Source: Cladocopium goreaui (Eukaryota; Sar; Dinophyceae; Suessiales; Symbiodiniaceae). From it: DNA of 64,000 bases. The DNA lies in assembly GCA_947184155.2 (NCBI GenBank), contig CAMXCT020002046.1, positions 62,001 to 126,000 of the forward strand. Direction: 5' to 3'. Below the pieces are notes generated by a model, which did no database searches, was not told the DNA's origin, and worked only from the letters and a program-made list of their open reading frames with translations. Positions within the stretch are counted from its first letter, which is position 1. Each line of letters starts with the position of its first letter. Below, piece by piece: positions 8,054-55,435 of the stretch. A program made the translations under genes and the position numbers.

Positions 8054-8401
8054 AACACCCGCTGCCAATTTGTGGACCGATGGCTTTTTGAAAAAGAAAG
8101 AGTGTCATGTTGACAAGCCGTCACCATGATTATCAACAGTTTGTTTATGCCAGCGGAGGGTGAATTCCAAGAGCGATCAGTGCTTGGCAAACCGCCCCAA
8201 TACGCTTTTACGGTTCAAGATCAGGTGATATGATGTCCTGGTTGCATGCATGGTCTTGTGAAAGAGAAATCTATTAGGTCTTTGTCCATATGATTTTTCT
8301 TCAAATACTTAAATCACGTTAATGTCATGATGTGTCATTTTTCAATTTCCATTTCCTGCCTTGAAATTACCCGCCGGTGATCCAACACTCCTTTGTTCGC
8401 A
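8054..8401. other. Spacer between YR and gag-like genes of element A
   Basis: 348 bp without an ORF, repeat or motif I can support. It includes an AT-rich stretch before the gag-like ATG at 8402. Confidence 0.5.
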
Positions 8402-13730: not shown

Positions 13731-13861
13731 CCCACCCCGTGTTACTCCCACCCTTTTGCCCGGCTCTTGGAAAACATCCGTTTTTCCAATCCGTGTATAC
13801 ATAGTTGCCTTTTACACTTCAAGCAACTTGGAACCTTTCATATTTGCCACCGGGCTTCCGT

Positions 13862-14453
13862 GATGCAAGCCCCAAATATAGTCAACTTCGCCGTTGCCAC
13901 GTCCATCTGCGTGATGTTTTTCCAGGGCACAGAGACCGACATCAGGGTCCGCCATTTCGAGGAAATAGCAGAAGCATGCTTACGCTTACTGGAATTTTTG
14001 GGACGCCCACCATTTTTGAAGAGCATATTCGACCTATGGGTCACTACAACGGCCGCCCTCGCACAATTGGAAAGAATGCTCTTTCCCAACGACCAGGTGC
14101 AGACACCGACACACCTAGCAGCACCACCCGCTTGGAGACCACTCTCAGCGGTTTGTGAGCCCGCCTTTGTTGGCCATCATGCTCTCATCCAACGTGCACT
14201 TCGACACCTGGAACAGTTCCGCGAGTGGTTCAGCACTGCGTACGATATTTATTTACACCATGAAACGCTCCACATGCTGGATGATTCCATTCTCTTGCTT
14301 CAATCAATTGAACATTTCATTCAACTTCAACCAGCTCCCGCCGGACCAGCCCGTGCCGAAGTACCCGATTCCACTGGTGGAGCTGCTGTGTCACCAACAG
14401 CCACTCCTGAACAAGCTCCCGCCGTTTCTGACCCATGGCATGATGACACTTGA
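13862..14453 (+). CDS. Small ORF between repeats A2 and B2
   Basis: 197 codons from ATG 13862 to TGA 14451-14453; the frame is open upstream into repeat A2. The product appears helical with a Pro/Ala-rich tail (APAGPARAEVP, TATPEQAPAV) and no recognised domain. Its stop abuts repeat B2 just as the pol stop abuts B1, so A and B act as leader and trailer for both ORFs. It could be an accessory gene of element A, or the cargo of a small non-autonomous A-ORF-B unit in tandem with the large one. It loosely resembles the short helical ORFs at 2656 and 4631. Confidence 0.4.
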
Positions 14454-14821
14454 ATGGGGAATCACGTGGCTGACCTGGCACAGTTTCGATGTGAAGCTTT
14501 TTGGTTTTTCAGCAGATACAGTTGGATGGCAGTTGCAAAGAGTTGTATGGGATGGTCCTCAAACCGAGGAGCCTTGTGACTATGTGATTCAGCTCTTGGC
14601 AACATGTGCCACTCATGGAGCGACCTGACATCGCCCATTGTTGTCCCGCTGGAAAAAAGTGTGTGACCGCGAAGCCAGTGTCATGTCACTTTCCGCATGT
14701 CAGTTTTTGGTGCTTGTTGTTTTTACTTGTTTTTAGTTTGAACGCGTGTTTTTGCGTTCTCCGTTTCTTGGAAGTATTGAACACACTCCCGTTCGCGAGG
14801 CGACTGGAACGTTTGGTTTAA
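14453..14821 (+). repeat. Repeat B2 of element A (right terminus)
   Basis: 369 bp, matches B1 without visible differences. The right end TTTGGTTTA is followed by ACCCTC, the continuation of the interrupted poly(A) repeat. Confidence 0.88.
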
Positions 14822-28200: not shown

Positions 28201-30652
28201 TAAACAAATCAATCCTAAAGCTGCCGAAAAGTTTATACATCGGCTCAGGCTGTTTCGGCAGCCAATCCTCTCGGTTGTCTCTAAGAGTATTGCTTTCAAT
28301 ACGTTTGCACAAAGTGTGGTACTATATACTACATCCTATTTTGGTGCTGCCACGGAAGATCTTCAAATGCTACGGGCGGCAGCAACTGAACTCCTACTAG
28401 GACGTAGCTGGATTAGACAGGACCTCCTTGCCTTTGTATTTCGATTGTGTAAAATTGCACCACTACTTGACCCTGGTGTAAGTATCCTTGTTTCTGCATT
28501 AGGGCTATTTCTGCGAAAAGGAGGAAAGGTTCATGAACTTTATGTTGAAAGTCCACCGGCAGTGAACAGACAAACACACGAAGTTAGGATACTATGGCAA
28601 GCGTGGGCACGTGTCGTTGGGGAAGGTGTCCTAACAAGAGCTGTGTCAGGAAGTGGTACAATCAAACAACGAATAAACGCAGTCAAAAAATGTGTGCTTC
28701 ATCACATGATGCAACTTGCATCTCACTATATTCGTAACAAAGTGCTAACAGCAGGATGGACGGGAGGAATCAGCTGGGCATGGCTCAGTCATGCTTGCGA
28801 GGCCAACAAGCGATGGATTCCTAGTATTACTAGGTTCACCTTGCTACGCTGGGCAGTCAATGAGGATGATGATGAGTGGTTAGCACGACGTGGCCAAAGC
28901 CGGCAAAAAAAATGTGCTCTCTGCGCAAACTTTGGCCGTGCATACCCACTCGGCGGCTATCAAACCGCAATTTGTGAAACATGTATAGTAACCAAACAGT
29001 TAACGGCCTTTACGACAGACTCCCTTGTCAGACTGCTTGAGGCATCACACAGAGAACTCCCTATGCAAGAAGAATTGCCAGCAAGTGAAGACTGGGAAAA
29101 ATGCATTGCATGTGCAAAGGGAGACAATACTGTAGGGCATTGGGTTCGGTGGTGTGTAGTACCTATCAGTGCACTACGAAGCCTAACAGGAGATGATTCA
29201 ATACTGTCGCTGGCCGAAGGGTCAAGGAAAAGCGTTAAGCACTTAGCAATAGCCTCACGAGTAGTCCATCAATTCAGGTTGCTACTACGGGAATCTGGTG
29301 CAATGAGACATCAAATCTCTGCTCCCCTTATCCCCATGGATACCTGGATACATAACCTCGTGCAAAGAGTACAAACAGAGCTACCCCTGGACCTTCGTAT
29401 GCAGCATGTAAGGACACAATTAGTTTCCGCCCACTGTTCTGTTGATGACTCGCTACTCTGGTGCTGTGACAAACCCCCACTCCACATCTCGTGCGCCCTT
29501 GCACCAGCTCGGGTATGCATTACGCGTGAAGCAGTAAAAGCCAATCAAGCGGTTGCGGTCGTCCCCTTAGGCTCTGAACCTCTACAATTAATTCAGCAAA
29601 CTATCCAGTTCGGAACAGGAATTTCCCCCAATGTCTCGCTCTCCACTTTCCAGTGTGAGTGTGGTGACTATCATTGCCGTATTACGGCATTGCAGCCTAT
29701 AGGCACCGATGAAGTGCTCAGCAGCTATCTTAAGTCTGACAAAACTACACTACTAGTACAATTTGACGGGTCCTGTCATGCTGATAGGGGAACAGGTGGA
29801 GCGGGTGCTGCTCTCTTAGAACTCCAACGAGAAGGACTAACGTTGCTCAAATGGAGGGCTGTTGCATTACCTAGCTGCCCAGACAATATCTTTGCTGAGG
29901 CGGTGTCAGCTAATCTCGCAACAGACCTTTTGTGTGAGGAAATGGTACACAGAAGCTACGCAGTTGACCAGGCCTATCTACAAGGGGATATCCTCCCCAT
30001 CGTTAAGCACTTAGCCTTTGCAGGACGCTTTCGTAGGATCGACCTACAGCCTATTATACAGCAAATTCGCCGGAAACAATCGAGGTTTTTTGACCATGGA
30101 AAATGGGTATACCGCCCAAGAGAAGCCAATATACTCGCAGACTATCTTGCTGGAGTAGCTAGCAGAGCGGCCCAGGCCTTCCCAGCTCATGTAAGCGAGC
30201 CTACTGAAATCGTGGTTGAAGCACCCTATCAGTTGGCTATGCGATCTGGGGCCATTGTACTGGAAGAGAGGCCTCTAGGTGTTACGATCCTACTACTTAC
30301 CGAGGTCCCGAATATAAGTATAGAATTGGTAAATAGATTTATGGTGCAAGCTGCAAACCAGCAATATCTCAAAGAGGTGGAGGCCTATCTAGCGGGCACT
30401 GCCAATCTCACGAAACCCCGAGTAGTAGAGTATACGGCGTCTGCAACAGACTGTCTGGGCCGACTGTACGGTAGAGGTCCCTGTGCTCAAAGACTACCAC
30501 GAAAGGTGAGATTACTCCTATTTGGAAATACGCACCAGGAAGTTGACATGATCGGCGCATTCTATGAAATCATGAGACGACTCCTTCGCAGCAGCCACCT
30601 CCCACATATAGTAGATCTTAGAGTCTTAGAGCAATACTTACTGATCTGCTAG
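25226..30652 (+). CDS. APE endonuclease, reverse transcriptase and RNase H polyprotein (non-LTR pol)
   Basis: 1808 codons. The APE-type endonuclease at about residues 119-335 shows HVWNVSG, LLQETRW, GGDFNQV, SALDRVL and SGHYQL. It would nick target DNA for target-primed reverse transcription. The RT spans about 590-830: APGPDGIPYSAW, FRPLGMPN, LVDLSKAFERVN (motif A), then DMGRSFSVFLLCL where motif B is expected, and GYIDGNTI where the catalytic YxDD box should be. The second Asp is Gly (GGC for GAC), which would impair catalysis if ancestral YIDD is correct. Cys pairs follow (CALCANFG...CETC; CIACAKG). Residues about 1440-1500 (PNVSLSTFQCECGDYHC...ITALQPIGTDEVLSSYL) faintly resemble a SET-domain end. 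RNase H follows at about 1510-1650: FDGSC, AEAVSA, LQGDI, REANILADYLAG. Confidence 0.85.
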   Translation: MMMILRNLPAPLLRTMLKMLTRCVKTTYLFETGTQCPPYLSKIRDLSILPNILHVRTPWWKLTLQHVAALFHQGVDDFYQQLMCDSRTLPSLAVEEIGRGILEYRKAIRQDLPFRLKRLHVWNVSGWTLATRAGDAKMRLVKRLLRTGPVLLQETRWHAETHQVLHHNIPGIQVAHTQGLLTERGGVSGGAAALIPPGWKLDRTEVVIPGRIVLAVIQDRYSTIGLLSVYLHPQTKVVELKELIAWVKTSKVDFPLYMGGDFNQVDASCPDLWNELLVHAQVLDTHPQLHTFESPTGSSALDRVLCPTDYIAAAQIDVMVAANRRHHLSGHYQLTATFVVRPRVKSDMKDPVHQTIPTNVFCPGKNEANPYMVPNDLQELIRRIQRLPQTDEVEFVSTLWSWWRQQPIPSDHPRIPEHELLRKFLKIRAEVLHVPAKQFHALQTATYHIFTSNVVSELYPGKITIRSDLLKQIFDFLDQITITRQYPALEQVNQQARGIGNNITFWNRLRSICPKGVIYNGPILNQQGEQCTTSQMLDEAMLDTRNFWFVKPQDSLQEWEPILREYQTASPWPSIELPQKQDFLHTLLGTKDSAPGPDGIPYSAWRLSPEDSYPVLDQLMMKMLAGLRAAPVQVGVWIPKAKVGPTADYFRPLGMPNTCDRLVDGTIAAVVMKATCAYMHPSQVVMNCFKEPQHAVHAIQALLDSNTPMAALLVDLSKAFERVNPYWILHILRMRNAPTWVCNYAKYILFGRLIRHKVQGRLLPPRAVHVGVDMGRSFSVFLLCLAMDPIYHYMNRIPRVISVQGYIDGNTIAGPGHDITWVSRVHKCYQCCWSAGFQIDQHACWQAISSDCPPFSVQSLPGRIESEVILRQKTYPTARAAILSAILSQKTLILARADKCIGLTPREACRILNGTDYTPICSLLALECNCRCKTALVINSPLPSWVLRQLDQSGFGAHCIQGVATSLGLLLLGRAQLSDRDLWTVTTHPTTLKQINPKAAEKFIHRLRLFRQPILSVVSKSIAFNTFAQSVVLYTTSYFGAATEDLQMLRAAATELLLGRSWIRQDLLAFVFRLCKIAPLLDPGVSILVSALGLFLRKGGKVHELYVESPPAVNRQTHEVRILWQAWARVVGEGVLTRAVSGSGTIKQRINAVKKCVLHHMMQLASHYIRNKVLTAGWTGGISWAWLSHACEANKRWIPSITRFTLLRWAVNEDDDEWLARRGQSRQKKCALCANFGRAYPLGGYQTAICETCIVTKQLTAFTTDSLVRLLEASHRELPMQEELPASEDWEKCIACAKGDNTVGHWVRWCVVPISALRSLTGDDSILSLAEGSRKSVKHLAIASRVVHQFRLLLRESGAMRHQISAPLIPMDTWIHNLVQRVQTELPLDLRMQHVRTQLVSAHCSVDDSLLWCCDKPPLHISCALAPARVCITREAVKANQAVAVVPLGSEPLQLIQQTIQFGTGISPNVSLSTFQCECGDYHCRITALQPIGTDEVLSSYLKSDKTTLLVQFDGSCHADRGTGGAGAALLELQREGLTLLKWRAVALPSCPDNIFAEAVSANLATDLLCEEMVHRSYAVDQAYLQGDILPIVKHLAFAGRFRRIDLQPIIQQIRRKQSRFFDHGKWVYRPREANILADYLAGVASRAAQAFPAHVSEPTEIVVEAPYQLAMRSGAIVLEERPLGVTILLLTEVPNISIELVNRFMVQAANQQYLKEVEAYLAGTANLTKPRVVEYTASATDCLGRLYGRGPCAQRLPRKVRLLLFGNTHQEVDMIGAFYEIMRRLLRSSHLPHIVDLRVLEQYLLIC

Positions 30653-32349: not shown

Positions 32350-32640
32350 GTAAAACTTCTCATCTTCACATCTCATCTTCACATCCTCTCATCTTCACAT
32401 CTGCTCATCTTCACATCCTCTCATCTTCACACCTTCTTTCACATCTTCTCATCTTCACATCTGCTCATCTTCTCATCTTCTCATCTTCACATCTTCTCAT
32501 CTTCACATCTGTTCATCTTCACATCTGCTCATCTTCACACCTTCTTTCACATCTTCTCTCACATCTGCTCATCTTCACATCTGCTCATCTTCACATCTTC
32601 TCTCACATCTCTCTCCTATTTCTCTCTCTCGCCTTCTTTT
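32350..32640 (+). repeat. CATCTTCACAT-type microsatellite
   Basis: Irregular tandem array of CTCATCTTCACATCTG-like units, pyrimidine-rich on the plus strand. ORFs across it are repeat artefacts. Confidence 0.9.
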
Positions 32641-32692
32641 TATCTTTCTCTCTTAAGGCCGAGGGTGGTGCCGGCGGCGAGTCACGAAACGC

Positions 32693-33190
32693 CAACCCTT
32701 TCGCACGAAATGAGGGTCGATCGGCAAAAACTGAAGTAAAATTGCGATTTGACTTGCCCCGGAGCAACCCTTTCGCACGAAATGAGGGTCGATCGGCAAA
32801 AACTGAGGTAAAATTGCGATTTTACGTGTGCTAAAGCAACCCTTTCGCACGAAATGAGGGTCGATCGGCAAAAACTGAGGTAAATTGCGATTTTACGTGT
32901 GCTAAAGCAACCCTTTCGCACGAAATGAGGGTCGATCGGCAAAAACTGAGGTAAAATTGCGATTTGACTTGTCCTGGAGCAACCCTTTCGCACGAAATGA
33001 GGGTCGATCGGCAAAAACTGAGGTAAAATTGCGATTTTACGTGTGCTAAAGCAACCCTTTCGCACGAAATGAGGGTCGATCGGCAAAAACTGAGGTAAAA
33101 CTGCGATTTTACGTGTGCTAAAGCAACCCTTTCGCACGAAATGAGGGTCGATCGGCAAAAACTGAGGTAAAACTGCGATTTACTGTTGCC
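32693..33190 (+). repeat. 72-bp minisatellite, seven copies
   Basis: Units start at 32693, 32765, 32837, 32908, 32980, 33052 and 33124, so the period is 72 (once 71). Each opens with CAACCCTTTCGCACG and contains GGGTCGATCGGC. Two unit variants differ in the last third (TTTGACTTG versus TTTTACGTG). The period is divisible by three, so long minus-strand ORFs appear but show no protein features. Confidence 0.92.
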
Positions 33191-33194
33191 GTTC

Positions 33195-34100
33195 TTGTCT
33201 GTGTGTAAAAGCGCCTGTGTGTAACCAAAAAGTCTCGTCAAAGTCCTCTGTGTGTCTCTGTGTGTAAAAGCGCCTGTGTGTAAAAAGCGTCTGTGCGTAA
33301 AAGTCTCTGTGTGTGAAAGCGTCTGTGTGTAAAAGCGTCTGTGTGTCAAAGTGTCTGTGTGTAAAAGCGTCTGTGTGTAAAAGTGTTTGTGTGTAAAAGT
33401 GTTTGTGTTCAAGTGTTTCTGTGTAAAAGCCTCTGTGTGTAAATGTGTTTGTGTGAAAGCGTTTGCGTGTAAAAAGCGTCTGTGTGTAGAGGTTGTCTGT
33501 GTGTAAAAGCGTCTGTGTGTCAAAGCGTTTGCGTGTAAAAGCGTCTGTGTGTAAAAGTGTTTGTATGTAAAAGCTTCTGTGTGTAAAAGTGTTTGTGTCA
33601 AAGTGTTTGTGTCAAAGTGTTTGTGTAAAAGCCTCTGTGTGTACATGTGTTTGTGTGTGACAGCGTCTGTGTGTAAAAAGCGTCTGTGTGTAAAAAGCGT
33701 CTGTGTGTAAAAGCGTCTGTGTGTCAAAGGGTTTGTGTGTAAAAGCGTCTGTGCGTAAAAGTGTTTGTATGTAAAAGCTTCTGTGTGTAAAAGTGTTTGT
33801 GTTACAGTGTTTGTGTCAAAGTGTTTGTGTAAAAGCCTCTGTGTGTACATGTGTTTGTGTGTGACAGCGTCTGTGTGTAAAAAGCGTCTGTGTGTAAAAA
33901 GCATCTGTGTGTAAAAGCGTCTGTGTGTCAAAGGGTTTGTGTGTAAAAGCGTCTGTGCGTAAAAGTGTTTGTATGTAAAAGCTTCTGTGTGTAAAAGTGT
34001 TTGTGTTACAGTGTTTGTGTACAAAGCCTCTGTGTGTAAAAGCTTTTTGTTTAAAAGCGTCTGTGTGTAAAAAGCGTCTGTTTGTAAAAGTGTTTGCGAT
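33195..34100 (+). repeat. TGTGTGTAAAAGCGTC minisatellite with higher-order structure
   Basis: Degenerate 14-18-bp units (CTGTGTGTAAAAGCGT and variants with CAAAG, TTTG or TATG). Blocks of about 230-250 bp recur within it (for example 33510-33750 and 33740-33990). The 397-codon minus ORF spanning it is a by-product. Confidence 0.88.
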
Positions 34101-34510
34101 GCAAACTACTGTCTTGCACTTCTCACTGTCCTGTCTTGATACTCCTCTTCTCGACTGCCTATAACAGAGCTTTCATATATCGTTTCTAATATTGCGTCTC
34201 CATACTAACAAGAGAAGACCCTGCTCCCCCCTGAACTGGCCGAGCAAACATGACTGTAAGCATTCCCAGAGCTTCTTTTGGTGGCCGTGGTGCTCGTCTT
34301 TGGAGATTTTGGAGGCCTGCTGCATGTTGCCGTGTGGCAGTCATTCGATGTTTTGCAGCTAGCTTTTGGTAAAACCGCATGATTTTGCGAGTTTCAACTG
34401 CAAGCTTGTGTTCCGTTTGTTTGGTGAAAGCATGAAGCTGGTCGGCGCAGCTATTGGTTCGAGATTTGTATCGCGCTTGGCGTCTATAAGTTGTCACTCT
34501 GGGTTCGCTG

Positions 34511-35560
34511 CAACCGGATATGTCCGAGAAGGTCCGAGAGTTGCAACAAGGCTTGACAGAGGGAGGAGTTGATCCCTTCCGGCGCCAGGTGCGCAAACTT
34601 GGGATCAATGCATTGACGGCTTTAGCTTCTGAGATGGGTATGTCACTGTGTGGCATTCATTCGATGTTTTGCACCGCATGATTTTGCGCCAGGTGCGCAA
34701 ACTTGGGATCAATGCATTGAAGGCTTTAGTTTCTGAGCTGGGGATGTCAGTGTGTGGCAGTCATTCGATGTTTTGCAGCTAGCTTTTGGTAACACTGCAT
34801 GATTTTGCGCCAGGTGCGTAAACTTGGGATCAATGCATTGAAGGCTTTAGTTTCTGAGCTGGGGATGTCCGTGTGTGGCAGTCATTCGATGTTTTGCAGC
34901 TAGCTTTTGGTAACACCGCATGATTTTGCGCCAGGTGCGCAAACTTGGGATCAATGCATTGAAGCCTTTAGCTTCTGAGCTGGGGATGTCAGTGTGTGGC
35001 AGTCATTCGATGTTTTGCACCTAGCTTTTCGTAAAACTGCATGATGTTGCGCCAGGTGCGCAAACTTGGGATCAATGCATTGAAGGCTTTGGCCTCTGAG
35101 CTGGGGATGTCAGTGTGTGGCAGTCATTCGATGTTTTGCACCTAGCTTTTCATAAAACTGCATGATTTTTGCGAGTTTCAACTGCAAGCTTGTGTTCCGT
35201 TTGTTTGTCAAAGCATGAAGTAGGTCGGCGCAGCTTTTGGTCCGAGCTTCGTATCGTGCTTGGCCTCTATGAGTTGTTACTCTGGGTTCGCTTCAACCGG
35301 AAATGTCCGAGAAGCTCCGAGAGTTGCAACAAGCTACGACAGAGGGAGGAGTTGATCTCTTCCGGCGCCAGGTGCGCAAACTTGGGATCAATGCATTGAA
35401 GGCTTTAGCTTCTGAGCTCGGGATGTCAGTGTGTGGCAGTCATTCAATGTTTTGCAGCTAGCTTTTGGTAAAACCGCTTGATTTTGCGAGTTTGAACTGC
35501 AAGCTTGTGTTCTGTTTGTTTGTCAAAGCATGAAGCTGGTTGGCGCAGCTTTTGGTTCGA
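34511..35560 (+). repeat. Tandemly amplified exon fragments of the SAP-like gene
   Basis: The segment GCCAGGTGCGCAAACTTGGG, plus the following bases coding for INALKAL, recurs at 34583, 34688, 34809, 34930, 35051, 35366 and 35680. Steps are 105, 121, 121, 121, 315 and 314 bp. Every copy is followed by the same non-coding piece (GGCAGTCATTCGATGTTTTGC), except the last, which runs on into the full exon at 35618-36080. The first unit and the copies at 35294 and 35608 also contain the ATG-bearing start. This is a local array of partial exon duplications, probably non-functional apart from the last. Confidence 0.75.
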
Positions 35561-35617
35561 GATTCGTATCGCGCTTTGCCTGTATACGTTGTTACTTTGG
35601 GTTCGCGTCAACCGGAA

Positions 35618-36080
35618 ATGTCCGAGAAGCTCCGAGAGTTGCAACAAGGCTTGACAGAGGGAGGAGTTGATCTCTTCCGGCGCCAGGTGCGCAAACTAGG
35701 CATCAATGCATTGAAGGCTTTAGCTTCTGAGCTGGAGCTGTCCGTGGAGGGGAGTCGCTTGAAGGAAGAGTTCGCAAGCCGGGTTTGTGCAAAGATCGAA
35801 GTGCAAGAATCTGTTACACGGTTGCGCTGTGTCGTGCAAAGTGGTGGCACAAAGGGACTTTGGACGCAGCTCAAGGCGCTGAAGGTTGAAGATCTTCGTG
35901 TCATTGCACAAGAGATTGGCTTGCCGTCAAGTGGAGTCAGGGACGCAGTGATGAAAAGGCTGTTCGACGACATATCTGCACAGGAAGCTGGCACCACTGG
36001 TAGACCATTGCCGTCCAGTTCGTCTCGCCGCCCGGAATTGCCCGAGGCGGGGAATGATGAGCAGCCGCCGCGGCGGGGTT
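35618..36080 (+). CDS. SAP-like domain protein, first complete exon
   Basis: Starts at ATG 35618 (MSEKLRELQQGLTEGG); the frame is open into the first 525-bp unit. Two helix-extended-loop-helix segments resemble SAP DNA-binding motifs: INALKALASELELSVEGSRLKEEF and LKVEDLRVIAQEIGLPSSGVRDAVMKRL. A disordered Ser/Pro/Arg-rich stretch follows. The exon probably ends near 36080, where the tandem units begin; the donor is not certain. A role in DNA binding is inferred from the SAP pattern only. Downstream exons are in 36081-39053. Confidence 0.5.
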
Positions 36081-45570: not shown

Positions 45571-45575
45571 GTTAG
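45571..45575 (+). other. Target-site duplication GTTAG, left
   Basis: GTTAG directly precedes the 5' LTR and recurs at 53652-53656 directly after the 3' LTR. A 5-bp duplication fits Copia integrases. Confidence 0.9.
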
Positions 45576-45753
45576 TATAGAGATGTGAACAGTGCACTCA
45601 ACCCCCTATACATAGCCATGTGTAACTGTTTGCTAGTTGAAAACTACTCCAAACTGAAACACTCAGTTTGTGCAAAGAACAGTTGCATGCAAGAAGCATG
45701 GACCAATACGTGCGCAATTTCCGCAGGCTTTGTGGTTACAAAAGATGTTTTTA
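45576..45753 (+). repeat. 5' LTR of Copia element
   Basis: 178 bp, begins TATAGAGATG, ends GATGTTTTTA; identical to 53474-53651. Confidence 0.93.
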
Positions 45754-45770
45754 TGGTAGAACGGAGCTTG
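45754..45770 (+). other. Primer-binding site of Copia element
   Basis: TGGTAGAACGG starts at the first base after the LTR. Its complement ends in CCA (CCGTTCTACCA), as expected for priming by the 3' end of a tRNA. The tRNA species cannot be identified from sequence alone. Confidence 0.65.
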
Positions 45771-45889
45771 ATGATCCAGCGTTTCTGGTGAGAGCTCTGA
45801 GTTTGCTAGGTTTCCTTTCGTCCTTTGCCGTGGGACGCGCAGCCATAGCTTGCAGTTTCTGGATCTAGGGTTCACCTCAGGGATTTGGA

Positions 45890-48800
45890 ATGAGTGCTCA
45901 AGGAAGCCCAACTGCATCAGCTGGAGATGGTGGTCTTTCAGGTGCTGATTTGGCACTTCGGATGATACAGGCGGCTGAGGCAGCAGCAACAGCTGCAAAT
46001 GCAGCATCGGCTGCACTCAATACAATGACCTCTACTTCTTCGAGCACAGGTCAAACTGGAAATACAGGTGGTGACATCAGAACAGAGTGGTACAAAGTGC
46101 TACCGAAGCCAGGTGTTTTCGAGCCCCGTGATAGGGAGGCCGAACTGGCCACATTTCGGGACTGGTGGTGGCAAGTTGAACAATACATAATGGCTGTAGA
46201 CGCTAATTATGGGCATGACTTGCAGACCATCAGAGCGAATTTGGACGATGAAGTCCCACTTGTGGAGCAGAACATCGAGAAGACACGTCGCAGTGCATTC
46301 TTGTTTGGCTTATTAGCCTCGCTTCTTCGAGGACGCCCACTTCTTCTCCTTAAAGGAATTGAGCAGGGCAATGGGTTGGAGGCTGTACGCCAACTGTTTC
46401 GCACTTGTCAACCAACTTCGAGAAACAGGAGTTTGGGTTTGCTTCACTTGATCATGCAGTGGCCGAGCTTTGACATGAAAAGTGCAATCCTTCCACAAAT
46501 TTTGAAGCTTGAAGACAGTTTTCGAGAGTATGAGAAGATTGCATCGACGCTTGCCGAGGAAATTCGTTTTGCTGTGCTTATGAAGTGCTTAGGGGGTCAG
46601 TTGAAGACCTACTTGCAGGTTTCCCTTCGAGACAGTACAACGTATGATGAATTACGTGAAGCAGCGATCAGATATGATCAAAGCACTATTCGATGGACAA
46701 ATGCGATGGCCCTTGGGAGTGCAGTGGCTTCACCAGCCGACACTGCCATACCAATGGATGTGGATCGCATTGAGAAAGGTGGAAAAGGTAAGAAAGGGAA
46801 AGCCAAGTCCGCTGGTAAGGGCAAGGACAAGAACAAAGGAAAGCAGAAATCGAAACAAGGTGACAAAGGTTACCATTCTGGCAAAGGGTATGGAAATCAA
46901 CAGCAGACTTCGTGGAGTTCAAAGGGATCGTCATGGCAAAATTCATCATGGTACAACAATTCAGATGGTTTTGGAAAAGGTGGAAAATCCCAAAAGGGAA
47001 ACAAAGGCAAGGATTCTGGAAAAAGCAAGGATGTGACCTGTCACAAATGTGGTGGACAAGGTCATTACGCCCGAGATTGTCGAGTTAGAGCCGTTGGACA
47101 GTCTGACAATGGTGCAAATACAACAGATGGAAAGGCAGACAGCACTGGCAAAGGTAACTCCAGTGGCAGTGCTCAGGTCAATCGTGTGAGTTTTGCACCA
47201 AATGTTTCAGCTGCAACCGTTTATCGTGAGTTCAATTTCGACATTTCTGGCAGTGACAATTTCAGTGATTTTTCCAGTTTTCATGTGAACATGATTTCAA
47301 AACACACCAAACCTGAAACCAAACCAACTGTTTTTGATGAGTTTGTGGATACATGTGAGGGTGATGAACAACAGTTTTTCAGTGGATGCGCAGATTTTTC
47401 AGTTTGTGGTGATTTTTGCAGTTGCCGTGGAGTGCATGAGTTTGCAAAGCGTTGGACAGATGGTACAAGTGATGTTGAGCAGTTCAATTTGCAACGATTG
47501 TTTCAGCTTGACGACATGGAGCACTACTCTCAGAGAGTTTGGGACAGATTTCAACTTGGTTTGTATGATGTTGCAGAACCTCATTCATGTCACAAACATT
47601 TCATGAGTCTTGGTGATGTCAACGTTTTTCAACCCTGTGAGAAGGTTCAGAAGACATGCAACGACCTTGAGACACATTTGAGTGTGCGTGCTGTTTCAAG
47701 TTGCAACCATGTCGACATCATTCTTGATTCAGGTTCAGATGTGACGCTTATCCCAACATGCATGTCAGGGATTGGAATCCAGGCACAACCTACTCCTGGT
47801 ACATTTCTGCGTGACGCTCAGGGCAAAGAGATCATTACAAGTGATGTGCGTGATGTCAAGTTTGAGTTTGAAACTGTGAATGGTGAAACAGTGACCATCA
47901 AAGATCGTGCATTCTTCAGTGACCGCATTGACAACCCACTGATTTCTTTTGGAAAACTGTTGAAGACTGGATGGAGTATTGAGGGTTCAGACATGTCAGG
48001 TCCACCCATGTTATCACACAAGAGCGGTGCAAAAGTTGAACTTGCATTTCGAAACAACTCCTTGGTTCTTGCAGGTGATGTGAGGATGATCCAAGATGTC
48101 AGAGCAATCAGCGTGGATGTGCCCCGGTCTTGGTTCAATTTGGCCAGAGGATGGTATTCATTTGACAACTTTCAGATTTGCAGTTCAAGTGCATCCCATT
48201 ACATTGATGCAACACGTGAGTATTTGGTTGTGGAATGGCCTTACCGTACAACAGTTGCATTGCATGACACGTTGGGATGGCAAGTGATTGAGCTGTGTGA
48301 GAAGCTTTTCACCATGGATGAGCGTGCGGCACCTATCACTGGCAACTATTCAAGACTGTTGACAATCTTGTCCAAAGAAGTTATCAGCATTGGTCAGTTT
48401 GGCATGGTGATTTCAGATGCAGTGCATACAGAAGGCGATGGGTTAGAAAGGTCATCAGGTTCAGGAGCAACTTCAACTAGTGCAAATCTTGGTGCAAGTG
48501 ATGTTGCAACTGGTCCTGCAAGAGTTGCAGAACAACCTCAACGTCGTGAACAACCTGATGAGCCCATGACACAAGTTGCATTGCCTCAGACTGTTGCCGT
48601 GGAACCACATAAAACTATGGTGAAAATTGCAGGTGTTGAAGTTTTGGACACGTCATCCATTTCAGTTCTCAAAGCAGCATGTTCATTTTTACAGGTGAGC
48701 CAGGCTGGAAGTAAGAAAAAGTTGTGGTCAAGGATTCTTGCAACACTGGACAAACAAGCAATTTTGGCAGAGACAGAGCTAGCTGCAGTGGCTTTGGATG

Positions 48801-51800
48801 AGACGCAACGCAGAGCAAATCCTGTGCACACTGCAAACCCTCCAGAGGATCCTGCTGAGATTGATGCGCATAACCTTACGCATCTTCCTTACCAACCATG
48901 GTGCCCAGCTTGTGTGATGGCCAAAGGAAAACCAGAACAACATCGATCAGACCCTTCGAAATTGGTGCGCAGAGAATTTCCTATCATTTCTTGGGACTTT
49001 TGTTATACTGGTAAAAGCTGTGAAAGCTTGACAGAGAAATCAGAGCAATCGAAGTTGACTGCATTGGTTGTACATGATTCTCACACTGGTGCAGTGCATT
49101 GTATTCCAGTACAACACAAAAGCCAGACGAAATACATGAGCCAAGAAATCATGCGCTTCATTATTTTTTTGGGTCACAGTGTGGTGATGCTGAGATGTGA
49201 TCAGGAGCCTTCAACGCTTCAAATCCAAAGACTTGTGCAAAGAGCTCGACAACGCCTCAACCTACGTACAGTTGTCGAGGATGCCAAGGTTGGAGATCAT
49301 GGAAGTAATGCTGCAGTTGAAAAGGCAATTGACAGAATCAGAAATCAGGCATCAGTTTTCCTTCATGCTTTAACGATGAACATTGGATTTCAGATTTTGC
49401 CACAACATCCTTTGTTTGCTTGGGCGTTTACACATGCTGGATGGACGTTGACGCGCTTCACAGTCAAGGCTGGCACAACACCTTTTGAGTTGATAGCTGG
49501 ACATGGATACAATTCAAAACTATGTGCGTATGGATGTCCTGTCATGGTTTTCATTGGTGACACAACGCAGCAGAAGGGTGATGCCAAGTGGCAACGTGGA
49601 ATCTTTCTCACAAAGACATTGTCCAATGACATGTACTTGACAGCGGTTGGTGGAACACTCAGACTTTCTCGATCAATCAAAATGCTGTATCCAAATTGGA
49701 GTGAACACTTGGAAGAGTACAGGCAGGTACTTACATATCCATGGCAGTTGGAAGGTGCAATTGGCAGTCGCACATTCCCAGTTGTGCGCAATGAACTTGT
49801 GACACCTTCTGCAATTCCAGGTGTTGATGATGAAGCAGCAGAAGAACCCGAGGACGAAGTGTTACCACCACCAGTCATTGCTGATTTGATTCCAGTTGCT
49901 GAAGACAGACGTAGAATGGCACCTCCTCCTACAGCTGTGGCCAGTGCACCAGCAACCACTCCTCCAACTCCAAACATTGTTCAACTTGAAGCTGCAGAAC
50001 AAATTGATTGGGAAGGTAACGGTGTCGAGCAGGCGGGGGTACCTGCACCAAGTTTGGGAGTTCCTGGTCCAACCACACCAGGATTGGAATCACCAATGGA
50101 TGTTGGAATGGAAGCTGAACCATCAACTTTGAGTGAACCTGAAGCAAAACGTGCAAGATTTTCAACTTTGCGTGTTGGAGCCGAGACCTTAATGCATGTG
50201 GACGAGGATTCCAGTGAACTTTTGCAACAGTGTGGTGAAGGTGATTTTTCATTTGCAATAAGTGATTCAGTTGAGTCTTTTGACATTTGGAATGATGATG
50301 ATTCAAGTGCTGGACGTGAGATGACTGAAGACGACTTGTGGCAACCGCAGAGTGCTTTGGAGCCACAATTGGATTCTGAACGTTTGCAACGCATTGATGA
50401 CTTTGCAGATTCAGTTGAGATAGACAGACTGCTTGGTATGAAGGTGATACAATGGAAGAACAACTACAATGGTGAGCTTGGTACAGAACTCAGTGCCAAA
50501 TTTGTACGGTCATGGAGAAAGAAAACAAGGAAAGTTTTTGCAGAAGATGGGAAACTCATTTCTGAAACTCCTGGCTGGCTACGCCGTTCCAGATTGGTGG
50601 CCAGAGAATTCAATTGGTTGGATGTGCGAGATGATGTTTACAGCCCATCTTCAAGCAGCTCAGTCGTGAAGATCCTCCCAGCTCTTGCATTGTCAGATGG
50701 CTTTGCACCCAACAGCGTTTTAGGCACATTGGATGTGGCAGATGCTTTTCTCCAAGTTCCCCAACCAATGCCGAGAGTGGTAAAACTTGGGTCCATGGAA
50801 CTGGTGATTTTGATGTGCCTTCCCGGGCAACGGGATGCTGCAAAACTTTGGTATCAATACTTTGTTGACACGTTGAAAACCTTGTTCAAAGCAGAAGTTT
50901 GCATTGAACAACCTTGCGTGCTGAAGGTTGACAACAAAGTTGCAATGGTTTTACACGTTGATGATGTGCTATTCATGGGTGATGAAGGTTGGATAAACTC
51001 TTGCTTTCTTCCTGAGCTGGAGAAAAGGTTCAAGCTGAGTTCAACAGTGGTAAGCCGTGCAACTGGTGGTACTTTCGAATTTCTCAAGCGTTACCATGTG
51101 GTTGATGCTGGGTATACTCAGATCACAGTGTATCCTGAAGCAAAGCATGTTTGTGCGATGTATGAAAAGTTTGCTGAAGCCAATGGACGACCAGCAAAGT
51201 TGGCAAAGACACCGTGCTCTCCTGGAAACCCTGCAAATGATCCAAAACTGGATGAGTTGCTTCCTCAGAAAATGGCTGAAGTTTTCAGAAGCCTTGTGGG
51301 CATAGCGATGTATGTGAGTCAAGAGCGCTTTGATTTGCAATACGCAACAAAGACATTGGCCTCATCTCTCAAGCAACCCACACGACGTGCTTGGTGTGAT
51401 CTAGCCCGTCTTGTTGGCTACATGAAATACAGTGAGAATTTTGCTTTGAGGATGAAAAAGACGCAGCGGGGGTCTACTTTTCAGCAAGTATTGCATGGTG
51501 GTGAAAGTGAAAGTGAAAATGATTTGAATTGCATTGAAACGTACACGGATTCAGATTGGTCAGGCAGATCTACATCGTCAGCTGTGCATTTGATCAATGG
51601 ACTGGTTGTTTGGTCAACTTCTAGGACACAGAAGTGCGTATCCCTTAGCTCAACAGAGGCTGAATGGTATGCAGCCACATCAGCGGCATGTGATTCACTA
51701 TTTCTTCATCACGTGGTTAGCTTTCTCACCAATCAAAAGATCAAACCAATCACATTGCATACAGATAATGCTGCTGTCAGAATGCTTTCAAAGAAATTGG

Positions 51801-53164
51801 GAGCTGGACGTCTCAGACATATTCATGGACGTTTGCTTTGGCTGCAGGAAAAGACTGGGTCTTCCGAGATGATCCTCAAACAGGTGAAGACCAATTACAA
51901 CTTGGCTGATTTGAACACCAAGAGCCTCAACAGGGATCGCTTCAACAGTTTACTTTTTCTTCTTGGTTTTGTTGTTGATGATGAACCAGTTGGTGAACAT
52001 GAATTTTCACGCATGGAATCCAAAGAACTTCTCAAACAGCAAGTCAAGATGATCCGTGAGACAATGGACACTGGAATAGACAATGTTTCATGTTCCAAAT
52101 CAAACAGATTTGCAAAGCAGTTTCTTAGGGTTCTCTCCATTTGCAGCCTTGTAGGGATGGCCGATGGATTTTCACTTCGTGGTATTGCATCACGAACATT
52201 CGAAGCCTTGGGTCAGTGGCACGATGCTTTGAGCCCAATCCATGCTTTGATATTTACAGTATTCTTCGTCATGGCCATGCTCTATGTGGTATTTATGTTT
52301 CCTGGATCAGGCATGAGCAGAAGCCGATCAAGGTCCAATGATGGAGATATTGAACCTGGAAGTGAACCGCCTCCGAGCAGATATCCTATGAATCCTCGAA
52401 GTCTTGGAGCCCGATACCCAGGACTATTTGAAAGCAGTTCATTCAGGCCAGAAGGGATTCTTTATTGGATGTTTGATCGATGCCACAAACGTGTGGTGAG
52501 AGGCAACAGAATGATGACAAACAATGAAAGGAAATCCGGTTTGCAGGATATGCTGAAACTTTGTGTGCGTGGTCTTTCAGCAGATGAGCAGCGCAATATG
52601 GCTGACAATCTTGCATCGTTGACAGACCTCACTGATGATGAATTTTCCCCACGTGCTCATTTGACTGAGTCAATGGTGATTCAACAATGTGCACAAGGAG
52701 CTGTTGCATTTGATATTGCAGCAAATCAGGTGAGACAAATGCGTGAGGCTGAACTTGACAGCGATGGAGAACAGATAGAATCTGCTGAGGGAAGATTTGC
52801 AAGGTACCAACAATCGACGGTATCTGAAGTTTCAGACCCTGCTTATTGGCATGATGTTCATGGAGAACAAAGTTCAGAACGAGATGTTGGAGATGAAAAT
52901 GAATCGAATGAAAGTGAGCCAGAAGGTGAAGCAGCTACAGACCCATCAGACTCAGATGGACCGGAAACCATTGAGGAGAAACGTCACAGGTACAGTTTCT
53001 TGGAGCGCCATGAGGTATCAGATGGTGAGCTGTGGCAACAATGGCACGACGAAGCCATGATGCGAGTCAATGGGGAGCAGCTACTCCAAGCTTCCCATCG
53101 ACTTGATTTCCGTGAATATCTCGAAGACATTGGAGATGCTGAGAGAAATGAACCACCGCAGTAG
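45890..53164 (+). CDS. Copia Gag-Pol polyprotein with C-terminal membrane-type extension
   Basis: 2424 codons from ATG 45890 to TAG 53162-53164. Gag with basic Lys/Gly-rich part and CCHC knuckle CHKCGGQGHYARDC (from residue 384). Protease DSGSD (Asp about 613). SAP-like helix pair SISVLKAACSFLQVSQAGSKKKLW (about 915-955). Integrase zinc-binding HNLTH...CPAC (from 994) and D-D-E core (Asp about 1035, Asp about 1104, Glu about 1144). RT with LDVADAFLQV (about 1614) and LHVDDVLF (about 1691). RNase H with YTDSDWSG, SSTEAEW and HTDNAA. About 390 residues follow RNase H, including a predicted membrane span (IHALIFTVFFVMAMLYVVFM, about 2115-2135) and a long acidic tail. That extension is not part of standard Copia proteins. 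The last codons and stop lie within the first of three 3' hairpins. Confidence 0.93.
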   Translation: MSAQGSPTASAGDGGLSGADLALRMIQAAEAAATAANAASAALNTMTSTSSSTGQTGNTGGDIRTEWYKVLPKPGVFEPRDREAELATFRDWWWQVEQYIMAVDANYGHDLQTIRANLDDEVPLVEQNIEKTRRSAFLFGLLASLLRGRPLLLLKGIEQGNGLEAVRQLFRTCQPTSRNRSLGLLHLIMQWPSFDMKSAILPQILKLEDSFREYEKIASTLAEEIRFAVLMKCLGGQLKTYLQVSLRDSTTYDELREAAIRYDQSTIRWTNAMALGSAVASPADTAIPMDVDRIEKGGKGKKGKAKSAGKGKDKNKGKQKSKQGDKGYHSGKGYGNQQQTSWSSKGSSWQNSSWYNNSDGFGKGGKSQKGNKGKDSGKSKDVTCHKCGGQGHYARDCRVRAVGQSDNGANTTDGKADSTGKGNSSGSAQVNRVSFAPNVSAATVYREFNFDISGSDNFSDFSSFHVNMISKHTKPETKPTVFDEFVDTCEGDEQQFFSGCADFSVCGDFCSCRGVHEFAKRWTDGTSDVEQFNLQRLFQLDDMEHYSQRVWDRFQLGLYDVAEPHSCHKHFMSLGDVNVFQPCEKVQKTCNDLETHLSVRAVSSCNHVDIILDSGSDVTLIPTCMSGIGIQAQPTPGTFLRDAQGKEIITSDVRDVKFEFETVNGETVTIKDRAFFSDRIDNPLISFGKLLKTGWSIEGSDMSGPPMLSHKSGAKVELAFRNNSLVLAGDVRMIQDVRAISVDVPRSWFNLARGWYSFDNFQICSSSASHYIDATREYLVVEWPYRTTVALHDTLGWQVIELCEKLFTMDERAAPITGNYSRLLTILSKEVISIGQFGMVISDAVHTEGDGLERSSGSGATSTSANLGASDVATGPARVAEQPQRREQPDEPMTQVALPQTVAVEPHKTMVKIAGVEVLDTSSISVLKAACSFLQVSQAGSKKKLWSRILATLDKQAILAETELAAVALDETQRRANPVHTANPPEDPAEIDAHNLTHLPYQPWCPACVMAKGKPEQHRSDPSKLVRREFPIISWDFCYTGKSCESLTEKSEQSKLTALVVHDSHTGAVHCIPVQHKSQTKYMSQEIMRFIIFLGHSVVMLRCDQEPSTLQIQRLVQRARQRLNLRTVVEDAKVGDHGSNAAVEKAIDRIRNQASVFLHALTMNIGFQILPQHPLFAWAFTHAGWTLTRFTVKAGTTPFELIAGHGYNSKLCAYGCPVMVFIGDTTQQKGDAKWQRGIFLTKTLSNDMYLTAVGGTLRLSRSIKMLYPNWSEHLEEYRQVLTYPWQLEGAIGSRTFPVVRNELVTPSAIPGVDDEAAEEPEDEVLPPPVIADLIPVAEDRRRMAPPPTAVASAPATTPPTPNIVQLEAAEQIDWEGNGVEQAGVPAPSLGVPGPTTPGLESPMDVGMEAEPSTLSEPEAKRARFSTLRVGAETLMHVDEDSSELLQQCGEGDFSFAISDSVESFDIWNDDDSSAGREMTEDDLWQPQSALEPQLDSERLQRIDDFADSVEIDRLLGMKVIQWKNNYNGELGTELSAKFVRSWRKKTRKVFAEDGKLISETPGWLRRSRLVAREFNWLDVRDDVYSPSSSSSVVKILPALALSDGFAPNSVLGTLDVADAFLQVPQPMPRVVKLGSMELVILMCLPGQRDAAKLWYQYFVDTLKTLFKAEVCIEQPCVLKVDNKVAMVLHVDDVLFMGDEGWINSCFLPELEKRFKLSSTVVSRATGGTFEFLKRYHVVDAGYTQITVYPEAKHVCAMYEKFAEANGRPAKLAKTPCSPGNPANDPKLDELLPQKMAEVFRSLVGIAMYVSQERFDLQYATKTLASSLKQPTRRAWCDLARLVGYMKYSENFALRMKKTQRGSTFQQVLHGGESESENDLNCIETYTDSDWSGRSTSSAVHLINGLVVWSTSRTQKCVSLSSTEAEWYAATSAACDSLFLHHVVSFLTNQKIKPITLHTDNAAVRMLSKKLGAGRLRHIHGRLLWLQEKTGSSEMILKQVKTNYNLADLNTKSLNRDRFNSLLFLLGFVVDDEPVGEHEFSRMESKELLKQQVKMIRETMDTGIDNVSCSKSNRFAKQFLRVLSICSLVGMADGFSLRGIASRTFEALGQWHDALSPIHALIFTVFFVMAMLYVVFMFPGSGMSRSRSRSNDGDIEPGSEPPPSRYPMNPRSLGARYPGLFESSSFRPEGILYWMFDRCHKRVVRGNRMMTNNERKSGLQDMLKLCVRGLSADEQRNMADNLASLTDLTDDEFSPRAHLTESMVIQQCAQGAVAFDIAANQVRQMREAELDSDGEQIESAEGRFARYQQSTVSEVSDPAYWHDVHGEQSSERDVGDENESNESEPEGEAATDPSDSDGPETIEEKRHRYSFLERHEVSDGELWQQWHDEAMMRVNGEQLLQASHRLDFREYLEDIGDAERNEPPQ

Positions 53165-53283
53165 GTTAACCTGATCCTACTGGGTGAGGCATAGCTGCAG
53201 CAAGTTAACTTGATCTTGCTGAGCTCGAAGATTTCCACTTTGCAGAAGGAGTCAGACATGAGCTAACCTGATCTCATGTTGAC
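53154..53283 (+). promoter_or_regulatory. Three bulged-G hairpins with conserved YTAACYTGAT loop
   Basis: Hairpins at 53154-53186, 53193-53225 and 53251-53283, each exactly 33 nt. Each has a 4-bp lower stem, an unpaired G on the 5' side, a 7-bp upper stem and a 10-nt loop. Lower stems: CACC/GGTG, AGCT/AGCT, GTCA/TGAC. Upper stems: CAGTAGG/CCTACTG, CAGCAAG/CTTGCTG, ACATGAG/CTCATGT. Loops: TTAACCTGAT, TTAACTTGAT, CTAACCTGAT. All 33 pairs are Watson-Crick while stem sequences differ, so pairing rather than sequence is conserved; loop and bulge are conserved in sequence. This is the pattern of a protein-recognised RNA element (compare the architecture of iron-responsive or phage coat-protein hairpins). 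Role in packaging, translation or RNA stability is inference. Confidence 0.8.
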
Positions 53284-53461
53284 CGTTTCACATACAAGCG
53301 TTTCAAAGTGATACAAGCTGTTGTTTTGCAATAACAAATCCAAGGCCCGTATGCATTGGGACATACACGATGTCCTCTTGGATTTTCGTTTGAACTAGTC
53401 TGTGTTTTACCGTAGGTAATTTCACTCTAGTTTGGGATATGAGTGAACAACCACTCAAAAC

Positions 53462-53473
53462 CCAAAGGCGGGG
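53462..53473 (+). other. Polypurine tract of Copia element
   Basis: AAAGGCGGGG directly precedes the 3' LTR, as required to prime plus-strand DNA; one C interrupts the purine run. Between the three hairpins and this tract (53284-53461) are further inverted repeats, e.g. AAATCCAAG/CTTGGATTT (about 53337-53385) and TTCACTC/GAGTGAA (about 53420-53446). Confidence 0.7.
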
Positions 53474-53651
53474 TATAGAGATGTGAACAGTGCACTCAAC
53501 CCCCTATACATAGCCATGTGTAACTGTTTGCTAGTTGAAAACTACTCCAAACTGAAACACTCAGTTTGTGCAAAGAACAGTTGCATGCAAGAAGCATGGA
53601 CCAATACGTGCGCAATTTCCGCAGGCTTTGTGGTTACAAAAGATGTTTTTA
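53474..53651 (+). repeat. 3' LTR of Copia element
   Basis: 178 bp, identical to 45576-45753; followed by the target duplication GTTAG (53652-53656). Confidence 0.93.
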
Positions 53652-53690
53652 GTTAGACAGCTTATTTCGCGACTGGAAGAGTTGAAGCTA

Positions 53691-54335
53691 GTGGGCAGGA
53701 GTGCAGAGATTGGAGGAGGAAGAAAAACAGCGGCAGGAAGCTGCTTTGGAAGATGGGAGCAGGGAGGCTGCAGATGCGAAGAAAAATCCGGGCATGAGTT
53801 CCCAGCAGAGCCGAGCGCTGAGCATTTTGCGTCGATTGGCTTTTGGCATGAACCGTTGTGTGGCCAAGTCCAACGGTGAGATGGCATATCAGTTGCTGTA
53901 TGAACAGGAGCAGTATGTAACTTATCGGGGCTACAACGTGTTCTTTCGATATGTTCCTTTTGCAATCATGCGGTGCAGAGAAGAAGCAATTGCAGGAGCG
54001 ATCGCTGATGCACCGCACCTCAGCGCGGCTCCAGTGGACTTTGTGACCGACACGGACGACGCGCCTGTTGCTTTGGATGAAATAGCTGAGGTTATGCAGG
54101 ATGAAGGTGAAGCACCTCGGGTGAAGCAAGTTGTTGTGCAGTTCAATCAGAAGGATGACTACCTTCATCGTGGTTCCTCAGTTTTGCTGCGGTGCATGTC
54201 GTTGGTGATGTACTCAAGATTTGTCCGCAGGGTGCCGCGAGCCAAAGCTGGTAAAGTTGATGGTGTGAAGTTTTTTGCTTTCGACGAACACTACCCGCAT
54301 CATGCATCATCTGTGCAGGATTCTTGGGTTGAAAG
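53691..54335 (+). CDS. Helitron gene, exon after the Copia insertion
   Basis: After GGGCAG (about 53690) the frame reads VQRLEEEEKQRQ, then RALSILRRLAFGMNRCVAKSNGEMAYQLLYEQE and YVTYRGYNVFFRYVP. This is the segment linking Rep and helicase in Helitrons. Joined to the pre-Copia exon it gives LPELYAG-VQRLEEEE. The exon likely ends near 54320. Confidence 0.65.
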
Positions 54336-54429
54336 AAGTGTTGCCGAATGTTTTAGTTTCACTTTTGGTTCTGTGTTTTGTTTCTGTGTTTTTTCGAAAA
54401 AGAAATGTTTCTCAGCTGCAGTTGCAGGA

Positions 54430-54560
54430 GGTGAGAGCTACTGATGACAACGTGGTTGTGCCTTCTGATTTGCATCTGCCACAGGACGCAGAGGTGCAGA
54501 AGTATGCCGCTCATATGCTTGGACTTTGTTTTCCTTTTCCAACTTGCAGTGGTGATTGAA
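54430..54560 (+). CDS. Helitron gene, short exon
   Basis: After the acceptor GTTGCAG (about 54428) it reads EVRATDDNVVVPSDLHLPQDAEVQKYAAHMLGLCFPF. Small internal exon; the stop at 54557 lies presumably in the intron. Confidence 0.5.
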
Positions 54561-54616
54561 GTGACTCGTACAAATGCTTTTCCTGTCATAGCATCGAGAA
54601 GAATGAGAAGGAATGC

Positions 54617-55435
54617 ATGATTTTTGGTCGTTTTGCGCCGCAGTGGAGACATTGGAAAGCTTGCATGGTGTTGCGTCGTGAAGCGGCACAAGAGCGCATG
54701 TTGGCAGGCTTGTCGATGCCGGTGATTCGAGATGTGATTACAGTCCGCAGGTACGTGCCTCGCATGGAAAGCAGTGGAGCAACGGTTCCTTTGGAGTTTC
54801 TGAAATTTGTCCTGGACAAGAAGTTGCGCCCTCGCGACTGCCGGATGCATGATGTTGTTCGCATTGTGGAACGTATTGCTTGGTGCTTGGGCGTTGCCTT
54901 GAACTATCATTACACTCAGCTGTCTCCTCTGGAATTCCTTTGCATTGTCCAGACTACTTGGTTGGAGCGTTTCGAGCAACACCATGCTGCGCGCCGGATC
55001 AGCAGCAGTCGTCGTCGAGCTGAACGCTTTGCTTTGATGACAAAGGTGGAAGATGACGACCTGGAGGATGATGCTGCGCCTCCGGACATTGAGGGGGACG
55101 AAGTGGAGGATGACTTGCGGCAGCAGGACGAGTTGGAACGCATGGAGCGAGCACAGTACACTTTGGACAAAGATGCTTTGCAGGAAGCATTGTTTCGAGA
55201 GCAGGATTGGATGCGGGTCTTGGGGAATCCTCGTGCTACGGTGCTGAAAGATACTCTCCGTCATTTGCGTGACTTTGTCAATGCTTTGGGAGGAGTACCA
55301 GATGCAAGGACTGGGATGGGCATTCGAAGTTCTGGTTCCTCTGGGGTTGAACGCACGTGGACGTCGGCGGATGCTGAAAGAGGCATGACTTTGCAGAAGC
55401 AGTACTTGGAATTCTGCGCCGGAGGCCAGGGAAAA
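54617..55435 (+). CDS. Helitron gene, exon upstream of the helicase
   Basis: About 270 codons. MHDVVRIVERIAWCLGVALNYHYTQLSPLEF and a long acidic helical part (KVEDDDLEDDAAPP, EGDEVEDDLRQQDELERM). No enzymatic motif; equivalent regions connect Rep and helicase in other Helitrons. It ends near CCGGAGGCCAGG, before the CA-rich intron. Confidence 0.6.

Follow-up and report, generated by a model that had tools for sequence, protein, structure and literature searches.

Results

Three hairpins of one design at the end of a Copia gag-pol frame

The window analysed here, a stretch of 64,000 nucleotides from the dinoflagellate Cladocopium goreaui (assembly GCA_947184155.2, contig CAMXCT020002046.1, positions 62,001 to 126,000 of the forward strand), carries a Copia-type long terminal repeat (LTR) retrotransposon at 45576-53651, with LTRs of 178 bp that are 100% identical. 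At and after the stop codon of its single Gag-Pol frame stands an array of three small hairpins, the subject of this study (Table 1). The first-pass annotation had described three 33-nt units with a common geometry (4 bp, a bulged G, 7 bp and a 10-nt loop) and Watson-Crick pairing throughout, and this description proved accurate in both coordinates and letters: 33 of 33 pairs are Watson-Crick, and the loops follow the consensus YTAACYTGAT. The stop TAG (53162-53164) lies inside the 5' arm of the upper stem of unit 1, which also spans the last codons.

The stems of the three units differ in letters while remaining paired. Double-sided changes affect 9 of the 11 pairs, a figure reached by 0 of 500 column shuffles, and registers slid away from the true one pair 30-40% of cells as against 100%. 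The window contains 136 hairpins whose stem has 7 perfect pairs and whose loop spans 4-20 nt, and only units 1-3 among them lie 20-500 nt apart and share a loop of equal length (at least 8 nt, with at most 3 differences). No such shared-loop pair arose in 12 dinucleotide shuffles of the window; the array is thus not a product of chance. RNA model R2, described below, found no further copy elsewhere in the window at E up to 10.

Folded singly, units 1 and 2 adopt the drawn structure as their minimum-energy structure. For unit 3 the drawn structure is the centroid, a variant with the bulge shifted by one base being equally stable. Of 100 shuffles of the region 53120-53475, 99 fold less well than the native sequence (z -3.0), whose minimum-energy fold contains all three hairpins, again with the bulge of unit 3 shifted by one base. 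Two other pairings were considered and rejected. Judged by eye, a different inner hairpin, possible in units 1 (AGG-UUAA-CCU) and 2 (AAG-UUAA-CUU), fails in unit 3, and pairing of the loop with the 5' leader finds no partner, as no complement of the loop occurs in 45576-45890 on either strand with 1 mismatch allowed.

Table 1. Hairpin units and other features of the carrier element (bit scores are those of RNA model R2)
Feature	Position	Strand	Description
Target-site duplication GTTAG	45571-45575	+	Second copy at 53652-53656; identified by eye
5' LTR	45576-45753	+	100% identical to 3' LTR; the BLAST match includes one extra shared G at left
Primer binding site candidate TGGTAGAACGGAGC	45754-45767	+	Directly after 5' LTR; identified by eye
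Single Gag-Pol open frame	45890-53164	+	2424 amino acids; zinc knuckle, Copia-type reverse transcriptase (weak match)
Hairpin unit 1	53154-53186	+	CACC-G-CAGTAGG-TTAACCTGAT-CCTACTG-GGTG; 4 bp, bulged G at 53158, 7 bp, loop at 53166-53175; 44.3 bits
Hairpin unit 2	53193-53225	+	AGCT-G-CAGCAAG-TTAACTTGAT-CTTGCTG-AGCT; bulged G at 53197, loop at 53205-53214; 46.0 bits
Hairpin unit 3	53251-53283	+	GTCA-G-ACATGAG-CTAACCTGAT-CTCATGT-TGAC; bulged G at 53255, loop at 53263-53272; 43.7 bits
Motif CAAGCTGTT	53314-53322	+	Follows the array in representatives of each of the eight families
Second structured element	53336-53385	+	Outer 9-bp stem, inner 6-bp hairpin; covaries in F1-F6
Polypurine tract candidate AAAGGCGGGG	53464-53473	+	Directly before 3' LTR; identified by eye
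3' LTR	53474-53651	+	

The hairpin in related loci

Related elements were collected with a 231-amino-acid query from the RNase H region, which gave 150 scored places out of 3580 candidates in the 1.17-Gb assembly. We studied the best 50 of the 150 by E-value, all from one genome and 59-100% identical to the query; lower-ranked, shorter matches, some of them 70-95% identical, fall outside this sample. Scanning both strands of all 50 loci for the loop alone (YTAACNNGAT, no stem required) returned 108 sites, every one of them in the sense orientation and in the 3' part. A stem with at least 6 of the 7 upper pairs surrounds 107 of these sites, 106 of them having all 7, and the bulged base is G in 107 of 107; the sole stemless site lies in L160 at +2285. 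Over the 107 sites, 1127 of 1177 pair cells are Watson-Crick, 28 are G-U and 22 are unpaired. The first-pass annotation had proposed a selected RNA structure, against which related Copia copies with unpaired stems or a lost loop would have told; across the 50 loci, the structure withstood that challenge.

The hairpin is present in 47 of the 50 loci. In two of those devoid of a unit (L132 and L135) the alignment to the element stops short of the 3' untranslated region, and the third (L161) is mostly N, so that every locus with a readable 3' end has the hairpin. Elements carry one to three copies, at or after the gag-pol stop and before the 3' LTR, and these copies share the 4-bp lower stem, the bulged G, the 7-bp upper stem, the YTAACNNGAT loop, stem covariation and a place in the 3' part of the element. 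A looser filter (9 of 10 loop positions, 5 of 7 upper pairs) gave 112 matches; four of them lie at the polypurine tract of F7 copies and were set aside as unrelated, and the remaining 108 units comprise 40 distinct sequences.

Further copies of the window's own family, F1, were retrieved through a two-loop pattern, and 11 loci were aligned with the window (one of them, L106, being the window's own place). The copy on C32, 97% identical over 1220 bases at the 3' end, keeps all three units; within them, one stem U-A has become U-G, and one T at loop position 1 has become C. Among older F1 copies, C1210 (L119) has two lower pairs broken and C1913 (L122) one upper pair. In some elements the units share stems with one another (L143-L148, L152-L158): this is so of units 1 and 2 in F6, and in F8 the units are identical or nearly so. 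Such sharing suggests duplication or conversion of units within elements.

Covariation across eight families

Alignment A3 brings together 17 representatives of eight families (F1-F8) and served to build model R2. Eight representatives, compared over the RNase H region, are 56-90% identical to one another. The drawn pairs form in 96.8% of the 187 cells of A3, and 10 of the 11 pairs show double-sided changes; doubly changed cells number 65, compared with 18.6 (standard deviation 3.6) in shuffles. The covariation score is 0.939, as against 0.271 for shuffles and at most 0.175 for slid registers. Related copies are not independent and shuffles therefore overstate significance, so that the slid registers and the spread over eight lineages provide the better evidence. 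RNAalifold recovered the same hairpin unprompted.

Invariant columns comprise the bulged G, the closing G-C pair and loop positions T2, A3, A4, C5, G8, A9 and T10, while positions 6 and 7 are free. The loop had been noted at the outset as conserved in sequence. This stands for its core in all eight families, but the YTAACYTGAT form seen in the window is too narrow, the cross-family consensus being YTAACNNGAT. The two helices differ in strictness: the upper stem is Watson-Crick in 753 of 756 cells, whereas the lower one is looser, with 384 of 432 cells Watson-Crick and 26 G-U.

Position relative to the stop codon and a second structure downstream

Distances were measured between the stop, counted from its first base, and the first unit, at loci whose frame runs to the expected end and in families other than F4. 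They are -8 in F1 (7 loci), +12 in F2 (3) and F3 (4), +13 in F5 (2) and F6 (4), +15 in F7 (3) and +134 in F8 (3); in L138 and L140, whose frame ends differently, the single unit lies at +18. The overlap of unit 1 with the last codons and the stop, which had been put forward as a constraint on coding sequence, is real in F1 but confined to that family. Beyond the stop, the frame remains open for 9, 9, 2, 14, 14, 0, 49, 29 and 48 codons in nine representatives, the longest extensions being those of F6 (49) and F8 (48). A readthrough product is thus possible only in F6, F7 and F8.

The array is part of a larger structured 3' domain. Between it and the polypurine tract, six families (F1-F6) have a second structured element, in which 94.4% of 90 cells pair, 7 of 15 pairs show double-sided changes and the covariation score is reached by 0 of 500 shuffles (the aligner shifts the inner helix of F6 by one base). 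CAAGCTGTT or a near form stands after the array, ahead of the second element, in all eight representatives, the pattern allowing T or C at position 6 and G or T at position 7.

Variation within families

Varying columns were counted in units and flanks over six groups, omitting L159 from the F6 flanks as its flank does not align. In total, 36 of 462 unit columns vary, compared with 222 of 1712 flank columns (345 when L159 is included); the absence of gaps in units is partly by construction, since units were found without gaps. The figures are 10/99 for units and 58/293 for flanks in F1 (12 loci, loop position 1 varying in each of the three units), 14/66 and 85/296 in F2 and F3 together, 2/66 and 27/282 in F5, and 1/66 and 23/272 in F8. 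Loop positions 1, 6 and 7, which also vary between families, account for 19 of the 36 variable unit columns and for 19 of the 20 variable loop columns; setting them aside is a post hoc split.

Pattern counts beyond the studied loci

Genome-wide, the loop alone occurs at 2553+2573 sites, compared with 3546+3448 for the reversed pattern, and was rejected as a marker for want of enrichment. The loop alone is not rare; the loop within this stem is the special part. Patterns of two loops were likewise discarded as a genome-wide marker: they are not enriched, so that copy counts cannot come from them, and satellites figure among their matches. Eight loci picked for the loop only (L070-L077) gave no match to model R2 at E up to 1. 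On C1038, C1475 and C1725, which carry 50% relatives, the two-loop pattern was absent among the matches listed; this argues against a strict two-unit array there and leaves room for single or changed units. Three places have 3 or 4 loop pairs, many of them about 45 nt apart, within a few hundred bases (C2101:385021-385380, C867:178447-178771 and C1954:71810-72085), and these may represent arrays of greater length or F8-like 3' ends repeated in tandem.

In IMG/VR, the two-loop DNA pattern matched 69 loci with 289 loop sites, of which 1 has 7/7 upper pairs and 8 have 6/7. We read these sites as chance and local repeats and rejected them as true units; the 20 of the 69 loci to which model R2 was applied gave no match at E up to 1. 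Protein scans found no relatives of the element in IMG/VR or GTDB contigs.

The carrier element and other features of the window

Assignment of the carrier to the Ty1/Copia class follows from its LTRs and 5-bp target-site duplication, together with a Gag zinc knuckle and an RVT_2 domain, the match to the latter being weak. In the Gag-Pol frame, PF00098 (zinc knuckle) scores 22.5 bits, above the Pfam cut-off, and PF07727 scores 24.6 bits (E 2.2e-05), under the cut-off of 31.6; several homologues of the protein carry PF07727. Named relatives come from Durusdinium trenchii and Symbiodinium natans, which by themselves make a dinoflagellate host probable; one from D. trenchii bears the name 'Retrovirus-related Pol polyprotein from transposon TNT 1-94'. 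Copia elements usually terminate at RNase H. Here some 310 residues follow the RNase H region (window 52220-53164), with a putative membrane segment, recognized by eye, and an acidic tail. One homologue, P0002, covers 100% of Gag-Pol query 1500-2424. P0002 and P0004, both from ENA contigs, share their C-terminal residues QEGENERNEPHY with family F5 (L139, L136), and so they probably derive from the same species as the analysed genome or a near one.

Elsewhere in the window, long direct repeats (5320-5685 and 13369-13734; 13004-13372 and 14453-14821), 98.6% and 100% identical, surround open frames at 5776-13003; they are probably another LTR element and a recent duplication. Pfam gave no match to four frames between 5776 and 13003. 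An open frame of 1808 amino acids at 25226-30652 has a weak RVT_1 match (28.7 bits, just under the Pfam threshold of 29.6) and is likely a non-LTR retroelement. Dense tandem arrays with periods of 16, 72, 121, 204, 215 and 315 occupy 32356-35733.

Discussion

Judged by comparison among families, the hairpin is a selected structure. Its most likely role would be that of a protein-binding array marking genomic RNA. We infer a protein reader from three properties whose combination is its signature: the fixed distance between bulge and loop, the invariance of the loop core and the free exchange of stem letters. The strictness of the upper stem and the looseness of the lower one make the bulge, upper stem and loop look like a recognition module, which the lower stem would hold in place. 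Even within a single element, as in F5 and F7, units can differ at loop positions 6 and 7, and the reader therefore probably ignores both. One could envision a protein or complex that reads the bulge and the loop on a helix defined by its shape, several copies of the hairpin raising the avidity. More speculatively, the bound protein might mark the full-length RNA as genome, either for packaging into particles or for export or trafficking beforehand; such a mark is preferred because the array lies in genomic RNA, near its 3' end. Taken as a whole, the proposal that, in a clade of Copia LTR retrotransposons, the array acts in cis as an RNA recognition element whose bound protein marks the RNA as genome is one that we favor with moderate confidence.

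Several observations weigh against this proposal or blur it. Two of the five covariation measures were less clear: in A3, shuffles reach the observed count of double-changed pairs in 71 of 500 cases and the observed count of pair types in 25 of 500. Units and flanks show no clear difference in variability in F6 (5/99 and 17/285) or in F7 (4/66 and 12/284), and two-loop patterns occur genome-wide no more often than their reversed controls (27+15 vs 32+50; 72+76 vs 104+104). An RNA helix would not usually be so poor in G-U as the upper stem (2 of 756 cells), and this scarcity fits selection at the DNA level too. Finally, the partner could be Gag or a host protein, as the evidence fits either.

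This last point bears on a narrower form of the same proposal, in which a host factor, and not Gag, would bind the array and use it for nuclear export or cytoplasmic trafficking instead of packaging. The constitutive transport element (CTE) of Mason-Pfizer monkey virus (M-PMV), which offers the closest image of such a function, is located after the last gene and ahead of the polypurine tract; it shares with the array repeated loops and a 3' location. According to the part of PMC4829213 available to us, retroviral CTEs are RNA export elements that recruit NXF1, and the M-PMV CTE resembles the array in that it is a structured RNA acting in cis in an LTR retroelement; it recruits a protein, as the array may. 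It differs in form, since each hairpin of the array stands by itself, is small and has one bulged G and a loop of 10 nt; the likeness is one of description, and Rfam families give no match in window 50000-55000. The unchanged loop core in elements whose RNase H regions have diverged to 56-60% identity would suit a slowly evolving host partner. On balance, export by a host factor is a possible but somewhat doubtful specification of the role. It is tempting to go further and to speculate that the hairpin is a portable tag: a new RNA hairpin family kept in at least eight Copia lineages of this one genome, in which one conserved RNA-binding protein, possibly a host protein used on the cell's own messages, would read the bulged G and YTAACNNGAT and decide the fate of genomic RNA. 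This generalization is as tentative as the export variant.

Other explanations dispense with a genomic mark. An element acting at the stop codon, in termination, recycling, readthrough or protection from mRNA decay, would account for the first unit lying 12-15 nt past the first base of the stop in F2, F3, F5, F6 and F7 (16 loci), and for the stop inside unit 1 in F1 (7 loci, with the frame open to there). We nevertheless find it unlikely: the F8 units lie 134 nt away (3 loci), L138 and L140 have theirs at 18 with a different frame end, seven of nine representatives have post-stop frames of just 0-29 codons (F8 and F6 reach 48 and 49), and a block to termination needs no invariant bulge and loop core. 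Selection might instead act on DNA, the inverted repeats being a protein site, a cruciform or a hairpin in single-stranded complementary DNA during reverse transcription. Both strands fold about equally well, and the scarcity of G-U in the upper stem would be explained, yet the lower stem has G-U in 26 of 432 cells and a duplex DNA site would keep its stem letters and not their pairing alone; this idea is rather less probable than a role at the stop. That the array has no function, being a recent tandem duplication of a palindrome, draws on the near-copy units within single elements of F4, F6, F7 and F8. It is contradicted by double-sided changes at 10 of 11 pairs and by the presence of the hairpin in all eight families examined, and can hardly be credited.

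The hairpin is a new RNA family of a known kind, the cis-acting structured RNAs of retroelements. The initial impression that no Copia element with such a feature had been described was borne out: a search of window 50000-55000 with Rfam covariance models, at E up to 1, brought no hit, and open-licence PubMed Central full text, which does not extend to subscription papers, yielded no published description. In the MS2 and PP7 coat-protein operator hairpins and in iron-responsive elements, one bulged base stands at a fixed distance from a sequence-specific loop on a stem that is largely free. The hairpins described here differ in their bulge-loop distance of 7 bp and their 10-nt loop YTAACNNGAT, and there is no homology. 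Mini-Ty1 RNA requires 3' sequence, and the 3' stem-loops of L1 and Alu have a different shape from the present hairpins. To our knowledge, structured cis-acting signals of Copia elements have been detailed mainly for yeast Ty1. As the portion of PMC8396678 available to us describes it, the Ty1 packaging region is a structured part of the genomic RNA of a Ty1/Copia element that is recognized by Gag; there the site is a 5' long-range pseudoknot, whereas here it is a 3' hairpin array. L1 and Alu likewise have a conserved 3' stem-loop in a retroelement RNA, but they are non-LTR elements, and recognition by reverse transcriptase is what the available part of PMC5135761 proposes for them.

Heat-activated Ty1-copia retrotransposons have been reported in Symbiodinium microadriaticum (PMC11453091, in the part available). 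Comparison alone, over eight lineages, defines an exact 33-nt module whose loop, bulge and stem constitute a built-in mutational test. The module would give a direct handle on how the RNA of these elements is recognized in dinoflagellates. It also provides a structural landmark by which their 3' ends can be located and, for organisms in which transformation is difficult, a means of fishing out an RNA-binding protein.

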